DNA of 35,969 bases from a virus. The stretch lies in IMG/VR virus record IMGVR_UViG_3300042890_001003, positions 1 through 35,969 of that record. One strand, given 5' to 3'. The stretch's first letter is position 1. Each line of letters begins with the position of its first letter. Both the position numbers and the translations under genes were made by a program. A model generated the notes under the pieces. It did not search any database. It was given only the letters and a program-made list of their open reading frames with translations, and had not been told where the DNA came from. This document shows positions 22,775 through 32,241 of the stretch, in pieces.

Positions 22775-22942
22775 CTACTCCTTGATTCTGTTAGCTTCCT
22801 TACTTCTCCGAATGGTCTCTTCACTAAAGAAATCTGGGTGGTAGTTTCCATCCTTATCCAGAATCTTTGCCTTATAGAGCAACTCCATCCTCTGCTCCTT
22901 AGTTAGGAATTCGTATATCTTAATTCCATCAATATTTATCAT
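22775..22942 (-). CDS. 55-residue protein
   Basis: Start ATG at 22942 overlaps the GIY-YIG stop as ATGA. MINIDGIKIYEFLTKEQRME, then YHPDFFSEETIRRSKEANR. Short helical protein, not recognised. Confidence 0.6.
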   Translation of the reverse strand: MINIDGIKIYEFLTKEQRMELLYKAKILDKDGNYHPDFFSEETIRRSKEANRIKE

Positions 22943-23370
22943 TTGAATAATGTCCGTACATGATTTCTGTGTATTTTTCCACCAACAAAGGCATTGTACC
23001 ATTTGTCTGGTTGAATTAGTACTTCATTAATAATCTGTTCTTTCATTTCAAGATAGGAGCATTCACCTTTGGTTTGGCAGAAGTGAATAATTTCACGAGT
23101 GAATTTATCTTCTCCTAGTGCTTTAACGTCGTTCTGGAGTTCTAAGGAAGATGACCAATAAGTTCTCCAATCGGAGTCAACTTTAGTTTTGATACGTTTC
23201 TTCTTTTTCTCACCAGACTTTAGAGTGACTGTCTTGATGGAAGTTTTAGCAAACTTTGCTAGCTTCTTTCCAATATACTGGCGACCATCTACCAGATTAG
23301 TGATTAGGTAAACAAATCCTTCACAATCTGGTAGCTCGGTCACTGGATTACCATTATAGGTCCAACTCAT
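22939..23370 (-). CDS. GIY-YIG-type putative endonuclease
   Basis: 143 residues. EGFVYLITNLVDGRQYIGKKL holds the GIY-YIG strands (FVYLI ... QYIG); WRTYWSSSLELQNDVKAL and ECSYLEMKEQI supply the Arg and catalytic Glu region. This family is common in T4-like phages as an operon gene, distinct from typical homing enzymes. Overlaps both neighbours as ATGA. Probably DNA processing; target unknown. Confidence 0.82.
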   Translation of the reverse strand: MSWTYNGNPVTELPDCEGFVYLITNLVDGRQYIGKKLAKFAKTSIKTVTLKSGEKKKKRIKTKVDSDWRTYWSSSLELQNDVKALGEDKFTREIIHFCQTKGECSYLEMKEQIINEVLIQPDKWYNAFVGGKIHRNHVRTLFK

Positions 23371-24185: not shown

Positions 24186-25181
24186 TCAACCATGGCACGA
24201 AATGCACTCGGATTTATTAGTTTGCACTCCACTTTCTGATCGAATATAGTACAGACTTTTAATGTATGGGTCCAAAAATGCCATCTTATGAACTGAACTA
24301 ATATACTCTTCAGTCTCTTCAGAACTAAAGAACAGATTGATACTTTGAGCTTGATCAATATACTTCTGACGTACTGAAGCCAATCTAATGATCTGAGTTT
24401 GGTCAATTTCAAAAGCAGTCTTGAACACTAACTTCTCTTCGTCAGTAAGCCAATCAACGTGCTGTACTGAACCTTTATGATTGATAATGTCCTTCACTAC
24501 TTCTTCAGAATAAACGTCCTTCTCTTTCATTAGTTTGAGTAAGGTAGGATTCACTCGATCAATCTTTCCAGCTGCAGTATTCTGTACGAAGGCGTTTTTG
24601 TATATTGGTTCAATGCCTTGGCTAACGGAACCACATATCAGAGCAGAACTCAGGTTAGGAGCAATAGCAATTCTGTGAGTATTTCTTACACCATATCCTT
24701 TACACCATTCTGGTTCTCCAAATGCTGAAGCCATCCATTGAGAAGCTCTTAACGATTCATCATGAAGATGTTTGAAGATTTCTGTATTCTTCAGATTAGC
24801 TTCGAATGATTCAAATGCAATATTGTGTTCTTGGAGATATGTGTGGAATCCTAACAATCCTAATCCTAGAGCTCGGCTTTTAGTAGCAAATCGTACTACC
24901 TTTTCCATCCCAGTAATTTTACTACCAATATTGATTAGGTCTTGATTCACACAATCAAGAAATACTGTTGCATCAAATACCGCAGTAGTATCTTTCCACT
25001 CATCATAGAGAGAAGCATTCATTGATGATAATACGCAACTAAAGGTATGGTCGTCATCAGAGAACAATTGTATTTCTGAACAATTGTGTACCAATATGTC
25101 ATTGGCAAAAAAATTATGATTATCTTCTACCGATATGTCATAAACGTCTTCTTCATAATCTAAATATTCAATTGCTATCAT
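24186..25181 (-). CDS. nrdA: Intein C-fragment fused to NrdA C-terminal half
   Basis: 331 residues: Int-C (1-33) then the NrdA C-extein (34-331). The extein starts CSEIQLF, i.e. the catalytic NLCxE cysteine and Glu (E. coli C439, E441). Further active-site residues are present: FSCVLSS (C462 partner), SLYYIRS (the Tyr-Tyr radical relay) and the C-terminal C-x-x-C in SECISCHG. NrdA reduces ribonucleotides to deoxyribonucleotides with NrdB. This half lacks the first conserved cysteine, so it should be inactive until spliced. Its ATG lies eight bases after the HNH gene stop with AAGAGGA upstream. Confidence 0.93.
   Translation of the reverse strand: MIAIEYLDYEEDVYDISVEDNHNFFANDILVHNCSEIQLFSDDDHTFSCVLSSMNASLYDEWKDTTAVFDATVFLDCVNQDLINIGSKITGMEKVVRFATKSRALGLGLLGFHTYLQEHNIAFESFEANLKNTEIFKHLHDESLRASQWMASAFGEPEWCKGYGVRNTHRIAIAPNLSSALICGSVSQGIEPIYKNAFVQNTAAGKIDRVNPTLLKLMKEKDVYSEEVVKDIINHKGSVQHVDWLTDEEKLVFKTAFEIDQTQIIRLASVRQKYIDQAQSINLFFSSEETEEYISSVHKMAFLDPYIKSLYYIRSESGVQTNKSECISCHG
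25083..25181 (-). other. Split-intein C-fragment (Int-C, 33 residues)
   Basis: Residues 1-33: VYDISVEDNHNFFANDILVHN is intein blocks F and G, with His-Asn at the splice site (HN|C). The +1 residue is the NrdA catalytic cysteine. Very close in pattern to known NrdA and NrdJ split inteins. Confidence 0.92.
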
Positions 25182-25190
25182 GTTATCCTC

Positions 25191-26105
25191 TTAAATATAA
25201 TCTATAGGGTTTAAATCTTTACACCACTTTTGATGTATCTCACGCTTGTATCCAGTTCGTTCTTCTACTATCGGAAATAGATCCTTTCCATAATTGAATC
25301 TATACTTGGACAAAGATTTTGGAAATTGTAAACCAGTTTTCAACATATACACCTTTCTGAAAAATGCCAGTGATGGAATATTCTGCAACTTGTTGCTGAG
25401 TAGTATAAATTCTTGTAAAAACTCTTCGTTTGTTATACCACTAAACCTGCTATTATTTTCGCCATCCGTATTACTAGTAGCGCCACTCCAATCTTCAGTC
25501 AACCTTTCATCATTTATTGAACAATATATACGTTCACCTGTCACCTTATTATAATATGTATGATTTCCTTTAGAATGATGAACCCATTCACCTGATAATA
25601 TTTTTGGATGATTTTTATCAAAAGATCCCATTATATCTCCAGTAATTACACATTTAACTGGAAATGTGTCTTTCCTTGATTCAGAAATCCTTCTTATACC
25701 ATCTTCAGTTTGCCATCCATGATTGTGTCGAAAATCTGAACTATTTTGTTTCATCCAGGCATAAGATGATCTTACCTTATTAGATATTATGGTAGGAATG
25801 CTTCCGTACCTTGGGTTAGTTTTGATGCCGTTTATAATACATCTAACTGCAACAAAATCGCCCCTATCACCATAGGCTTTATATCTCAATCTATGAGCAA
25901 ACAAATGTTCTTCAGGCAATAATACTACTAAATTAGTGTCTATATCAGTTCCACCAACCGATCTCGGAATTATATGATGAACCTCTGTATATAATGAATC
26001 GTATTGTAATCTAAAGTCATGTTGATTGCGTTCTAACATCCTTTTTCTAGGATCAGTATTCTGGCAATGTGAAACAAATTCGTCGTATAATTTTTTATAA
26101 TTCAT
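25191..26105 (-). CDS. Free-standing HNH homing endonuclease in the nrdA break
   Basis: 304 residues. YTEVHHIIPRSVGGTDIDTN, then LVVLLPEEHLFAHRL, is a complete HNH site (H43/H44, N58, H67). The C-terminal region (FLQEFILLSNKLQNIPSLAF and YRFNYGKDLFPIVEERTGYK) looks like a DNA-binding helix-turn-helix. Located exactly between the two halves of the split intein. Presumed to cut intein-less nrdA alleles and spread the split arrangement; the target site cannot be read here. Expression appears limited by an upstream hairpin with a late promoter in its loop. Confidence 0.88.
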   Translation of the reverse strand: MNYKKLYDEFVSHCQNTDPRKRMLERNQHDFRLQYDSLYTEVHHIIPRSVGGTDIDTNLVVLLPEEHLFAHRLRYKAYGDRGDFVAVRCIINGIKTNPRYGSIPTIISNKVRSSYAWMKQNSSDFRHNHGWQTEDGIRRISESRKDTFPVKCVITGDIMGSFDKNHPKILSGEWVHHSKGNHTYYNKVTGERIYCSINDERLTEDWSGATSNTDGENNSRFSGITNEEFLQEFILLSNKLQNIPSLAFFRKVYMLKTGLQFPKSLSKYRFNYGKDLFPIVEERTGYKREIHQKWCKDLNPIDYI

Positions 26106-26106
26106 A

Positions 26107-26148
26107 AAATCTCCTTTAATGATATAGTATTTATAATAAAGGAGATTT
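26107..26148 (-). promoter_or_regulatory. RBS-sequestering hairpin with late promoter in the loop
   Basis: Perfect 12-bp arms AAATCTCCTTTA (26148-26137, minus strand) and TAAAGGAGATTT (26118-26107). The second arm contains the HNH gene's ribosome site (AAAGGAG) two bases before the ATG. The 18-base loop holds TATAAATA (26135-26128). Transcripts from upstream would fold and hide the site; late transcripts would start near 26122, lose the first arm and be translated. This is the T4 I-TevI type of control. Confidence 0.85.
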
Positions 26149-26160
26149 CACTACACAGAA

Positions 26161-27300
26161 CTATTTCAATAGCAGAATATCGTTTTCTTGAAGTTGGCTT
26201 GCTTCGACGTATCCTCTATTCTCAGTGAATACCTTATGACATGGAGTACATTTTATAAACTTGCCAGTCCGTTTATCTGTAATTTTCATGAGTTTTGCAT
26301 TACGTCTCATCTGAGCGGACTTGGTAATTTTCTTCCACTCACCCACACCACTTTCTACATTATACGACCAAACCTTCCAATTTTCAACATCATCATTTTT
26401 ACCTAGGTAATTATTCAAACCTTCCATAGATACTTCAATCTCACCACTCATATCACCTTTGATATTGATTCTAGTGTCGCCCGATAAACACAAGTTAGAT
26501 GCCTTTACTGTAAGGCCCAAGTCTTTGTACATTTGAGGATTTTGGCGATTTACTTTATCGATGAACTCAAAGTATCCTTTACCAGTAATCATTTTAAGTT
26601 TCAATGCTTTCTGATATCGTTCAATTGCGTCAGGATCTCCTGCTTCTAATCTAGCAATGAACGCGTCAGTAACATTCCAACCAATATTAGCATCATCAGG
26701 TTGTTTGTTAATATAGTTAACTAATTCAAAGAAATCTGGGTGGTCAATTTCAATATAGCCAGCCCATGCTCCTCTACGTTGTGAACCTTGGCTAACGTCT
26801 CTCGACATTTGAACGTAATCTTTGAATACAGGAAGTACTCCAGAAGCACTACCTTTAATGCCCGAGATTTTAGAACCTCTAGGTCTAATACCTCCCAAGT
26901 AACTAGAAGTACCAAATCCATTCTTTGAAAGAATAGCAGCTTCTGTTTGTGAGTTATAGAATGAGAAAATAGAATCTCCTACTACTCCTCCTGAACAAGA
27001 AACAGGACAACCAAATCCAGTACCCATATTAGACAATACAGGAGTCGAAGCTGCTAACCAACCGTTCCATAATAGATTGAAGAATTTAGTTTCCCATTCA
27101 GCAGGATTACTTGTATACGAAGCAGCATGACTAGCCACTCTTGTATATACGGATTTCAAGTCTGGATGAGATGGAGTCAAGTAGCTACCTTTAAGCATCT
27201 GCCATGCAGCAGTAGTACACCAGTTAGGTAATAATCCTTGTTCTTGAAGGAGTTTACGTTCTTCACCTAATTCTTCATAAATTGATAATTCATTCACCAT
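26161..27300 (-). CDS. nrdA: NrdA N-terminal half fused to intein N-fragment
   Basis: 379 residues: NrdA N-extein (1-270) and Int-N (271-379). Family marks: LAASTPVLSNMGT, GCPVSCSGGVVGDS (first active-site Cys, E. coli C225), SKNGFGTSSYLGGIRPRG, and the ending TVKASNL, which is cut just before the catalytic Cys. No ATP-cone is present; spliced product would be about 568 residues, short for NrdA. The ATG at 27300 has TGAGGAAA upstream. A TTGCTT-17-TATAAA match precedes it. The ORF ends with the intein fragment, which shows the break is not a random frameshift. Confidence 0.93.
   Translation of the reverse strand: MVNELSIYEELGEERKLLQEQGLLPNWCTTAAWQMLKGSYLTPSHPDLKSVYTRVASHAASYTSNPAEWETKFFNLLWNGWLAASTPVLSNMGTGFGCPVSCSGGVVGDSIFSFYNSQTEAAILSKNGFGTSSYLGGIRPRGSKISGIKGSASGVLPVFKDYVQMSRDVSQGSQRRGAWAGYIEIDHPDFFELVNYINKQPDDANIGWNVTDAFIARLEAGDPDAIERYQKALKLKMITGKGYFEFIDKVNRQNPQMYKDLGLTVKASNLCLSGDTRINIKGDMSGEIEVSMEGLNNYLGKNDDVENWKVWSYNVESGVGEWKKITKSAQMRRNAKLMKITDKRTGKFIKCTPCHKVFTENRGYVEASQLQENDILLLK
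26164..26490 (-). other. Split-intein N-fragment (Int-N, 109 residues)
   Basis: Residues 271-379: block A CLSGDTRINIKG with the nucleophilic Cys1, and block B GKFIKCTPCHKVFTENRGYV with T-x-x-H (TPCH). It ends LQENDILLLK and stops at the position where natural split inteins break (before block F). No endonuclease domain remains in cis. Confidence 0.92.
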
Positions 27301-27326
27301 GTAAAATTTCCTCAAGTTTTAATTTA

Positions 27327-27334
27327 TATAAATA
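27327..27334 (+). promoter_or_regulatory. Late promoter TATAAATA for the plus-strand nuclease
   Basis: Exact T4 late consensus, oriented toward the GIY-YIG-like gene at 27419, with a predicted leader of about 79 nt. It lies in the 5' region of nrdA, which runs the other way. Confidence 0.7.
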
Positions 27335-27357
27335 CGTTATATGTAAAGCAAAAAGGT

Positions 27358-27421
27358 GTTAGTCACGGATTGCACTCCTACTAACTCTAAACATTCTATC
27401 AATAATCAGGAGACTATTATG
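27358..27421 (+). promoter_or_regulatory. Structured 5' leader of the plus-strand nuclease
   Basis: Arms GTTAGT (27358-27363) and ACTAAC (27380-27385) can pair. CTCCT (27375-27379) can instead pair with the AGGAG ribosome site (27408-27412). The leader aligns with that of the second GIY-YIG-like gene (32135-32200), where the arms are GTTACT/AGTAAC: a compensatory change. Confidence 0.6.
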
Positions 27422-28258
27422 TCCAGCACAACTATATATACACCATTCACTTATTGTATCACATTTCTCCCAACAGGGCAACGATACTATGGTGTTCGAT
27501 ATGCAAAAGGTTGTCATCCTTCTCAACTTTGGACGACCTACTTCACTTCATCAAAAATAATATCCAATCTTATAGAAGAATATAGCAAAGATTCATTCAC
27601 CTTTGAAGTTCGAAAAACATTTATCAATAAAGATTCTGCTCTATATTGGGAAACAAAATTCCTTACAAAAATAAATGCAGCAAACCATCCAGAATGGCTC
27701 AATGGTCATAATGGCGATCTAAAGTGGAATAATGTTGGTGGATATAAACTCACCGAAAAAACAGTATCCAATATGAGAAAACCAAAATCAGAATCTCATA
27801 AACTAAATATGAGAACACCAAAATCTAAAGAACGGAAACTTTCAGAAAGAACCAAATGTTTTGAGAAAACAGGATATTACTCTAATTTTGAAAATCCAGA
27901 TATTATTCAAAAATGCAAAGATTCGTATTTTCAAAATACTGGATATACTCATAATTCAAAAAATCCAGAAACTATTCAAAAGAGATCAGATAGTTATTTT
28001 GAAAAAACGGGATATGCTAACCCCTCAAAAAATCCAGAAGTGTTAGCACACCAATATGATTCGTATTTTCAAAATACTGGATATACTCACCCAAGCCTCA
28101 ATCCAGAAGTTCAAGAAAGAAAAATCCAAACCTATAAAGACACATGCTCTAAAAGACCTCCTATAAAATGCCCCTATTGCGATGTTTCTGGCAAAGGAGG
28201 CATAATGGGTAGATGGCACTTTGATAATTGTAAATTTAAACCCTTACCAACTGAATGA
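27419..28258 (+). CDS. GIY-YIG-like homing endonuclease with tandem repeats
   Basis: 279 residues from the ATG at 27419 (AGGAG six bases upstream). N-terminal nuclease-like domain: FTYCITFLPTGQRYYGVRYA, SQLWTTYFTSSK, DSFTFEVRKTF and WETKFLTKI; the GIY is degenerate, the YYG and later Glu are kept. Residues 148-236 are about four 23-residue repeats (TGYxxPSxNPE), a type of DNA-binding repeat known in homing enzymes. A C-terminal finger uses C251, C254, H267, C271. Inserted between nrdB and nrdA against the local direction; its end overlaps the nrdB end by 15 bp. Confidence 0.82.
   Translation: MSSTTIYTPFTYCITFLPTGQRYYGVRYAKGCHPSQLWTTYFTSSKIISNLIEEYSKDSFTFEVRKTFINKDSALYWETKFLTKINAANHPEWLNGHNGDLKWNNVGGYKLTEKTVSNMRKPKSESHKLNMRTPKSKERKLSERTKCFEKTGYYSNFENPDIIQKCKDSYFQNTGYTHNSKNPETIQKRSDSYFEKTGYANPSKNPEVLAHQYDSYFQNTGYTHPSLNPEVQERKIQTYKDTCSKRPPIKCPYCDVSGKGGIMGRWHFDNCKFKPLPTE
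27854..28126 (+). repeat. Four tandem 69-nt coding repeats
   Basis: In-frame units of 23 codons with the core (F/Y)F(E/Q)(K/N)TGYxxxSxNPE. The string GATTCGTATTTTCAAAATAC recurs exactly at two sites, so the copies are fairly recent duplications. Confidence 0.8.
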
Positions 28259-29239
28259 TTTTTCTTTCCACGATCTCGTGTATGATGAACCTTGAGAACT
28301 GAAAAAATCGTGCAATACTCCCGTCGAATCTATGTCTTTATAGAACCAGGTTTTAATTGGGTTGTATGTAGGCTTAAAAATTGCTTTGTATCCTAAATTT
28401 TCCAAACAAATATCCAATCTTGATTCAACAAACGCTTTTAATTGTTTATCAGTAATCCCCTTAATATTGCCCTTCTCGAATATCTTATCAATAATAATAG
28501 ATTCGTGCTCGAGAATGACTCTTGCAGTTTCTTCTAGTTCTTCTTTGAGCTGTTCTCTTCCGCTGATGGTTAACTGATCATCTTCAAAGGCTTCTTTATC
28601 CAGAGTACGGTATAACCACGCGCCAGCTTGAGAATGAAGAGTTTCATCAATAGCTGAAAAGTTGATTCCAGCATTGACATTAATCAACTTATTTTTACCT
28701 ACAGAGTTGAAATGTTTAAGAAAAGCAAATGAACTATACAGGATAGCACCTTCGATCATAGAAAACACACCGACCGATTTAAGTACATTGTATACGGTAT
28801 CTTTCTTAGTGGTTCTTTTAGCAATCCAGTTCATTCTGTTAGCTAATACTTTATCTTCTTTGTATGAGTTATAGAATTCTTCCGTATCCAATCCCAACAC
28901 TTCATTAATCTTATTATAGAATGGAGCATGAACTCCCAACTCCATAAAAGAGAATGTAGAAGCCATACGTTGGATGTCTGGTCTCGGAAACACTTTACTT
29001 ACATAGTTTTGCCAATAATCATTACCAACATTGAGTTCGTATAATGTGAATAATTTTAGGGTAGATATTACACCATGGTATTCTGCTTCAGTGCAATTGG
29101 TTTTGAGATCGTGTAGATCCTTTTCTACATCAATTTCATCAGGAAACCAAATGATAGATGCCTGTTGTTCAGCAAATTCTATAGCTGTAGGGTAATCAAC
29201 AATGTATTCCGATTTAGGAGTTAGTAGTCTAATGCTCAT
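28244..29239 (-). CDS. nrdB: Ribonucleotide reductase small subunit
   Basis: 331 residues. Holds the metal centre and tyrosyl radical for NrdA. Ligand regions: TLYELNVGNDYW, FMELGVHAPFY with Tyr four after His (as E. coli H118/Y122), MIEGAILYSSFAFL and DETLHSQAGAWLYR (E-x-x-H). The first Glu stands four, not three, residues before its His, unlike E. coli. AAGGTGA precedes the ATG. It lies upstream of nrdA in the same direction but is separated from it by the plus-strand nuclease gene. Confidence 0.92.
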   Translation of the reverse strand: MSIRLLTPKSEYIVDYPTAIEFAEQQASIIWFPDEIDVEKDLHDLKTNCTEAEYHGVISTLKLFTLYELNVGNDYWQNYVSKVFPRPDIQRMASTFSFMELGVHAPFYNKINEVLGLDTEEFYNSYKEDKVLANRMNWIAKRTTKKDTVYNVLKSVGVFSMIEGAILYSSFAFLKHFNSVGKNKLINVNAGINFSAIDETLHSQAGAWLYRTLDKEAFEDDQLTISGREQLKEELEETARVILEHESIIIDKIFEKGNIKGITDKQLKAFVESRLDICLENLGYKAIFKPTYNPIKTWFYKDIDSTGVLHDFFSSQGSSYTRSWKEKSFSW

Positions 29240-31438: not shown

Positions 31439-32134
31439 CTATTCCTCTATACATTGATTGATATGCAAATCGTAATAATATTTATATTTATATTTCTTAT
31501 TACAAATTGGACAAAATAAATATGGTTTATTTTTCTTAGTTTCTTTTATTTTTTCAATAACCCAGTCTATTTGACTTGGGTTCGTCACACCATACTTTTC
31601 GTGTATAGTTTTTTTTCCATTAGAAATTCTTAATGACGTATGCTCTTCAGATTGCTTTCCGTATACAAAACCAGACATTCCTTTATTCCAAGGGACTCTA
31701 CCTTGAGCCGCTAATGATATATTTTTACGATGATTGTCTGATTTTACTTTACCGCTTAATGCAATTGATATATTTTCATTCCACTCATCATCGTGAACAC
31801 GACCTATATTTTTAAACTTAGTTCCACCATTATGCTTATTTATCCACATATCATTAGCGGCAGCATCAAATTTAGTCAGTATTTTAGTTTCCCACGCTAG
31901 TGTTTGCTCTACAGTAGTAAAGACTTTTCTTATTTGATAATCAAAAGAATCGATACCGTATTCACTTATTAATTTGTGTATTTCTTTGGATGATGTGAAA
32001 TACGTATTCCACAGTTGAGATGGATTTGCTATTTTATTTGTACTATTTGCATAACTGGATCCATAATACAATTGTCCTGTTACTTTGAATTTTAAAATAT
32101 ATGTATACGGTATATAAATACTTTTGCTGATCAT
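31439..32134 (-). CDS. GIY-YIG-like homing endonuclease with NUMOD3 and zinc finger
   Basis: 231 residues from the ATG at 32134 (AAGGAG upstream). IPYTYILKFKVTGQLYYGSS, SQLWNTYFTSSKEI, DSFDYQIRKVF and WETKILTKF align with the plus-strand nuclease at 27419, so the two are paralogues. Then NISIALSGKVKSDNHRKNIS with GRVPWNKG (NUMOD3-like DNA-binding), HEKYGVTNPSQ, and a finger using C208, C211, H224, C228. Inserted between two conserved phage genes. The shared leader suggests common translational control. Confidence 0.8.
   Translation of the reverse strand: MISKSIYIPYTYILKFKVTGQLYYGSSYANSTNKIANPSQLWNTYFTSSKEIHKLISEYGIDSFDYQIRKVFTTVEQTLAWETKILTKFDAAANDMWINKHNGGTKFKNIGRVHDDEWNENISIALSGKVKSDNHRKNISLAAQGRVPWNKGMSGFVYGKQSEEHTSLRISNGKKTIHEKYGVTNPSQIDWVIEKIKETKKNKPYLFCPICNKKYKYKYYYDLHINQCIEE
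31479..31492 (-). promoter_or_regulatory. Two overlapping late-type promoters
   Basis: TATAAATATAAATA on the minus strand, i.e. TATAAATA twice, 42 bp before the ATG at 31437. They lie in codons for YKYKY of the nuclease, so chance composition is possible, but position and orientation suit late expression of the next gene and the spanins. Confidence 0.5.
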
Positions 32135-32200
32135 TAGATTACTCCTTGTATTCTTGTTAGTATGGTTAGAGTTACTGGGATGTAGGAGTCCGCGAGTAAC
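32135..32200 (-). promoter_or_regulatory. Structured 5' leader of the minus-strand nuclease
   Basis: Arms GTTACT (32200-32195) and AGTAAC (32176-32171) can pair; CTCCT of the upstream part (32188-32184) can pair with the AGGAG ribosome site (32146-32142). Aligns with the leader at 27358-27421 (GTTAxTCxCGGA, CTCCTAC, TAACTCTAA blocks). Confidence 0.6.
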
Positions 32201-32241
32201 TTTTTTCATTTATTAAATTTCCTTGTTGGAGTTCTTCTTTA

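Follow-up and report, generated by a model that had tools for sequence, protein, structure and literature searches.

The window analyzed here, a 36-kb viral fragment from IMG/VR (record IMGVR_UViG_3300042890_001003; 35,969 nucleotides, nt), carries on its minus strand, downstream of nrdB, a gene for the large subunit of ribonucleotide reductase (RNR), nrdA, that is distributed over three open reading frames (ORFs): (i) the N-half at 27315..26161, (ii) an HNH endonuclease gene at 26105..25191, and (iii) the C-half at 25181..24186. The N-half more likely starts at the ATG at 27300, which is preceded by GAGGAAATTTTAC. Its protein ends in TVKASNL/CLSGDT...ENDILLLK and a stop codon, and the C-half protein begins with MIAIEYLDYEEDVYDISVEDNHNFFANDILVHN/CSEIQLF, where the slash marks the border between extein and intein. 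The locus comprises the following features (lengths in amino acids, aa):

26491..27300, minus strand: N-terminal half of nrdA (N-extein, 270 aa from the ATG at 27300, ending in SNL); from sequence, Pfam and alignment
26161..26490, minus strand: N-terminal intein half (IntN), 109 aa plus stop codon, with Cys1 at 26490 and TPCH in block B; from motifs and Pfam
26145..26155, minus strand: TGTAGTGAAAT, which repeats the target motif of exon 2 (codons for C-x-E-I) and is a proposed operator; from the motif test
26104..26151, minus strand: predicted RNA hairpin over the ribosome-binding site of the nuclease gene; from folding, -16.1 kcal/mol, z -4.06
26128..26135, minus strand: TATAAATA, a T4-type late promoter box in the hairpin loop, putatively active; from sequence
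25191..26105, minus strand: MobE-like HNH endonuclease gene, 304 aa, with the HNH core at aa 39-71; from Pfam and similarity
25206..25478, minus strand: C-terminal domain of the HNH protein (aa about 210-300), a proposed site-recognition module; from similarity
25083..25181, minus strand: C-terminal intein half (IntC), 33 aa, with its own ATG and ending in VHN; from motifs and Pfam
24186..25082, minus strand: C-terminal half of nrdA (C-extein, 298 aa plus stop codon), whose first residue is the catalytic Cys; from sequence, Pfam and alignment

An initial annotation, made from the letters alone, had proposed that nrdA is broken here by a split intein exactly at the catalytic cysteine, and the searches bear out both parts of this proposal. 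The two halves match the Pfam family Intein_splicing (PF14890) at complementary profile positions, 7-93 of 155 for the N-half (E 8.8e-8, 32.5 bits) and 125-155 of 155 for the C-half (E 4e-8, 33.7 bits), each half, scored alone, lying slightly below the curated Pfam cut-off of 35.8 bits. The splice motifs are intact: CLSGDT with Cys1, CTPCH with the TxxH of block B, and VYDISVEDNHNFFANDILVHN/C with the His-Asn of block F/G and the +1 Cys. The solved structure closest to IntN is that of the naturally split NrdJ-1 intein (PDB 8ubs, E 4e-10). Purifying selection on the intein halves is about as strong as on the exteins, and the halves found in nuclease-free lineages are also under purifying selection (ratio of nonsynonymous to synonymous polymorphism, pN/pS, 0.07-0.36). 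This selection on both halves indirectly suggests that IntN and IntC are probably active in protein trans-splicing.

Joining of the exteins gives an NrdA of 568 aa (270+298, counted from the ATG at 27300), the length predicted at the outset, and restores SNL/CSEI. In the alignment of the joined protein with human R1, the +1 Cys falls on the cysteine of SNLC, which is residue 429 as counted along the alignment. The conserved Asn and Glu of human R1 (N427 and E431) and its two redox cysteines (C218 and C444) are matched as well; all these residues are catalytic. The RNR barrel domain of Pfam is found on the N-half and the C-half alike. The nearest solved relatives of the joined NrdA are 6dqx and 6dqw, which we take to be class Id reductases, and those of NrdB, 9dws/6cwo, fit this assignment; NrdA and NrdB together occupy the region 24186-29239 of the window. 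In Aeromonas phage Aeh1, mobE divides nrdA with no intein involved, and the NrdA functions unspliced (PMC2988022), whereas the break in the window falls on the catalytic residue itself. It is likely that no active reductase forms here without trans-splicing.

The split is real: three other IMG/VR contigs from different samples carry a locus that is 100% identical, and 35 related viral contigs have an uninterrupted SNL/C, the exact empty site. Because of these identical contigs and empty sites, the locus cannot be ascribed to chance, misassembly or artefact. The second, intact nrdA that, according to the initial annotation, would speak against its proposal was not found: a 49-kb contig with the identical locus contains one RNR large-subunit gene, the window itself being only a 36-kb fragment, and the complete genome of Yersinia phage vB_YenM_TG1 contains no RNR large-subunit gene beyond the one found. 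An intron was considered and rejected, as the window and five loci gave no Rfam match at the gathering score, group I introns included.

The ORF between the halves completes a fractured-gene layout, in which a split intein interrupts an enzyme gene and a free-standing endonuclease gene lies between the two parts, as had been proposed. Its assignment to the HNH type holds as well, given the match of the middle ORF to Pfam HNH (PF01844, E 2.8e-4) and the conservation of the HNH residues across 16 aligned sequences. The protein shows similarity of the MobE type, with 27% over aa 1-207 to annotated MobE proteins (E 2e-10 and 4e-11). A Vsr-like fractured-gene endonuclease was rejected, the domain being HNH PF01844. 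Foldseek searches of PDB with an AlphaFold2 model of the protein (mean predicted local distance difference test score, pLDDT, 72) returned weak HNH matches (best E 0.1) and no match for the C-terminal domain.

This C-terminal domain (residues about 210-300) matches the C-terminal part of GIY-YIG nucleases found in the same nrdA slot of other viruses, and it is also present in the in-frame HNH nuclease of a contiguous intein (locus L011) and in Vibrio phage YC. A first viral scan, dominated by a single close GIY-YIG group, placed 77 of its 79 new loci with the domain in the nrdA slot; the remaining two lie at contig ends and are preceded by IntN. A second scan, which extended to matches of 31% identity, placed 21/21 in the slot; 13 of these loci were read out (L234 ends before IntC and has IntN upstream), and the other 8 are on contigs already placed there. 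A search of 84,980 prokaryote genomes with a narrower domain alignment found no relative. The viral and prokaryote scans depend on a conserved peptide and would therefore miss more diverged copies elsewhere. With tblastn in INPHARED, the C-terminal domain of the window alone had no match, and the GIY-YIG version of the domain had a sole match, the nrdA of Vibrio phage YC. These comparisons suggest that the domain is probably a site-recognition module. The exact empty sites, and pairs of occupied and empty alleles that are nearly identical, suggest that the HNH protein would specifically cleave the insert-free nrdA allele.

The spacer between the IntN stop codon and the nuclease start was compared among loci, with distinct spacers scored. 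Its folding is unusually stable (z below -2.5 in 33/35), the region of the ribosome site is hidden in 33/35, and the hairpin recurs although its arms are unrelated in sequence. The T4-type late promoter box TATAAATA occurs in 20/36 spacers, compared with 1.3 expected. Both sequence and fold thus conform to the MobE-type design, a ribosome-site hairpin plus a late promoter box upstream, as in Aeh1; the same combination is the published design of T4 I-TevI and Aeh1 mobE (PMC2988022). A further motif, TGYNNNGARAT (TG[TC]NNNGARAT), lies a short distance past the stop codon in 13 of the 16 HNH-type spacers (0.105 expected) and in none of the 19 spacers of other types. It has the codon pattern C-x-E-I, the start of exon 2, and is retained in locus L054, where the nuclease is gone. 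Operators of T4 intron nucleases resemble their homing sites (PMC2988022), and therefore an autorepression operator is the natural reading of the spacer motif. The copy of TGYNNNGARAT near the late promoter box is probably such an operator.

A scan of IMG/VR with an IntC alignment yielded 497 loci with a relative, 80 of which were kept. Among the fetched loci, 57 distinct inserts were scored at the site, of which 53 are split and 4 are contiguous. Further contiguous inserts occur in L011, L012 and Vibrio phage YC. The ratio of split to contiguous inserts is biased because the queries were split inteins. The less biased scan with the N-half of the window returned mostly empty alleles, along with three split kinds, one insert ended by the contig (L009) and two contiguous ones. 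The slot nucleases are of the HNH or GIY-YIG type, with a few that weakly match TnsA-like proteins, phage endonuclease I-like proteins or DUF7487. Twelve split inserts are free of a nuclease, and their halves are -4 to 186 nt apart; in L104, the stop codon of IntN overlaps the start of IntC by 4 nt, which makes it a minimal fractured gene. The split arrangement is thus not rare, with dozens of cases in environmental viruses, and this single codon is found in related phages (i) empty, (ii) with a contiguous intein with or without an HNH domain, (iii) with a split intein and a nuclease gene, and (iv) with a split intein alone.

The nrdA of L232 (1148-4816) lies in three ORFs with apparently two split inteins, and the ORF of about 130 aa in its first slot keeps the C-terminal domain and lacks the nuclease core. 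In Klebsiella phage KP13-7 (L249; OP617745.1, 30937-37005), nrdA extends over four ORFs, and nuclease-like ORFs lie among them. One encodes the N part and the next a piece carrying IntN1; another combines IntC1 with an apparent IntN2, and the last carries an apparent IntC2 (VSHN/TSSQ). Its first split site is one codon later (SNLC/CEI), its annotation is mostly hypothetical, and no Rfam intron match was found. The NrdA ORFs of L058 and L059 seemingly have a second contiguous intein further along, before SSSLICGS. In L091, the homologous site is in a reductase with TNPC on the N side and CGEV on the C side, a class II-like motif; the catalytic-Cys slot may therefore span RNR classes. The window has other homing-endonuclease-like genes: a plus-strand GIY-YIG (SegE-like)/DUF7487 ORF at 27356-28258, between nrdA and nrdB and with TATAAATA upstream at 27327-27334, and genes at 22939-23370 (SegE GIY-YIG) and 31439-32209 (PHROG 314).

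Comparison of occupied and empty alleles points to recent movement. Two pairs, L010 (split with HNH) versus empty L029 and L011 (contiguous with HNH) versus empty L015, have flanks that are 94-98% identical over 800 nt. In the second pair, 8 of the 18 upstream mismatches cluster in the 31 nt next to the junction (P 5e-5), and the 30 nt of L011 closest to it match the intein-bearing L012 at 90% and L015 at 77%. This is the pattern that co-conversion predicts. On the intein tree, the intein of the window is sister to that of the nuclease-free L054 (support 100/97), whereas their NrdA hosts adjoin different empty alleles; transfer or repeated loss follows. Losses have left traces, as the nuclease-free spacer of L107 retains the 5' hairpin arm of its relative L130, and the spacers of L054 and L057 resemble, by eye, the end of an L072-type nuclease. 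Contiguous inteins, namely L087 and the L058 group, branch from within the split ones on this tree (3 changes), so re-fusion is possible, the rooting and sampling of the tree being uncertain. A serine-codon marker of occupied alleles (AGY versus TCN), suggested by two pairs, was rejected on the full table.

We conclude, with a probability of roughly 0.87, that the locus is a mobile fractured-gene element in which nrdA is trans-spliced, the HNH nuclease homes the cassette, and a hairpin and late promoter control the nuclease. From the anatomy and the selection, the two NrdA halves would be made as separate proteins, whose IntN and IntC would associate and splice in trans, using the intein Cys1, the terminal Asn and the radical cysteine of the enzyme as the +1 nucleophile, to give the intact 568-aa NrdA. 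The hairpin over the ribosome-binding site would keep the endonuclease untranslated on read-through transcripts of nrdA, and the endonuclease would be made from the late promoter inside the hairpin loop; T4 I-TevI and Aeh1 mobE have the same design. The endonuclease would then cut intein-free nrdA at or near the SNL/C codons, and the whole IntN-nuclease-IntC cassette would be copied when the break is repaired from the occupied allele. Nuclease genes are repeatedly lost, and the split intein stays because nrdA needs it.

Several results weigh against this reading or parts of it. TATAAATA is not enriched in the window (7 versus 5.4 expected), and there is no sign that its phage uses T4-type late promoters. 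A looser test for a homing-site copy, in which each spacer was slid along its own nrdA, gave a weak signal dominated by AT-rich noise (Fisher P 0.04 with one window size and 0.0008 with another); the test of the fixed C-x-E-I motif is clearer, and that motif was noticed before being tested. The spacer motifs are partly common by descent, to an uncertain degree. One copy of the C-terminal domain (L064) weakly matches Pfam HNH_repeat, and therefore the domain superfamily is wider than nrdA and not specific to it. Finally, co-conversion is significant in one of the two pairs and upstream only.

Other explanations were also considered. Contiguous inteins exist at the same site (L011, L012, L058 and L087), and one of them might have been broken recently by a sequencing error, frameshift or misassembly; this can be practically dismissed, as four independent contigs are 100% alike, nearly all relatives have an IntC start codon at this residue, and the reading frame differs between the two intein halves, which the 304-aa ORF separates. 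It is also very improbable that the gene works in pieces, with NrdA halves that assemble non-covalently and intein halves that are relics. Aeh1, whose NrdA split by mobE is active unspliced (PMC2988022), provides the precedent, and the window nuclease is MobE-like. However, all splice motifs are kept in both halves under purifying selection about as strong as that on the exteins, the break is exactly at the catalytic Cys, and both halves are retained in the twelve nuclease-free lineages.

The split intein might instead work as proposed but enclose a free-standing homing endonuclease gene of the HNH type that is unrelated to it; the nuclease would have moved into the gap and would cleave other sites, with no homing of the cassette as a unit. 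Free-standing endonucleases of phages frequently cleave at sites distant from the gene that encodes them (PMC2988022), and nuclease types in the slot change often, with 7 changes on the intein tree. We consider this unlikely given the C-terminal domain, which in every viral match is at this nrdA slot, also inside contiguous inteins there, the exon-2 target motif in the HNH spacers, and the near identity of occupied and empty alleles. A more serious possibility, although still the weaker account of the spacer, is that its target-like motif and hairpin are functionless flanking sequence, either inherited or captured. The motif could be common to homologous HNH cassettes through descent, and both its absence from the GIY-YIG spacers (0/19) and its persistence in L054 without a nuclease suit such an origin. 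Against it stand the conservation of the motif in 13/16 spacers, with nucleases as little as 22-48% identical to that of the window and variation at the three free positions, and the recurrence in 33/35 spacers of hairpins with unrelated arms. The homing, hairpin-controlled element remains the preferred reading.

The family-level patterns, namely all states at one codon, the shared domain and the copy of the target within the spacer, are of more interest than the single locus. We tentatively propose, at somewhat less than even odds, that the catalytic-Cys codon is served by a dedicated targeting module, with a recognition domain common to HNH and GIY-YIG nucleases and to contiguous and split inteins and with its own target copy as an operator; nuclease genes would be gained and lost while the split intein persists, and split genes could re-fuse into contiguous inteins. 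Split inteins are widely used as protein-joining tools, and their natural origin and persistence are unsettled. Since every state occurs at one codon in related viruses, the origin, spread and fixation of split inteins become testable with matched natural alleles, for which TG1, KP13-7 and YC are available as cultured phages. Because the site is the RNR radical cysteine, splicing should control the activity of an enzyme that the phage needs.

Fractured genes with split inteins (nrdA, nrdJ and others) were reportedly described from ocean metagenomes by Dassa et al. in 2009 (NAR 37:2560), who are said to have featured a Vsr-like nuclease family. The NrdA-2 intein closely resembles loci L240-L247 at the same SNL/C slot. 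According to PMC3653736, the 2009 study reported 7 nrdA cases. The HNH MobE-like nuclease of the window differs from the featured Vsr-like family, and a same-site HNH case may be among the genes described there. NrdJ-1 (PDB 8ubs), the closest solved relative of IntN, differs in its host gene, nrdJ, and in having TPDH for TPCH in block B. The contiguous intein in nrdA of Vibrio phage YC (MH375644) shares the SNL/C site and the C-terminal nuclease domain with the window; unlike the window, it forms one continuous ORF with an in-frame HNH_3 nuclease. Aeromonas phage Aeh1 nrdA is likewise interrupted by a MobE-family HNH gene with a ribosome-site hairpin and late promoter; in contrast to the window, it has no intein and its fragments assemble without splicing (PMC2988022). 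An Aeh1-type gene in pieces, with no intein at the break, was rejected for the window, where intein halves are present. A counterpart in a cultured phage is nrdA of Yersinia phage vB_YenM_TG1 (KP202158), which has the SNL/C site, the order IntN, HNH, IntC, an IntN and a nuclease 42% identical to those of the window, and a spacer that also has the TATAAATA hairpin and the target motif. TG1 differs in belonging to the T4-like phages and in its NrdA, which is very unlike that of the window (28% over a short match); its record lists a homing endonuclease and two genes for the alpha subunit, and no intein. It is well supported that the window locus is a further fractured gene of known type; an element of the same layout is present, unrecognised, in TG1.
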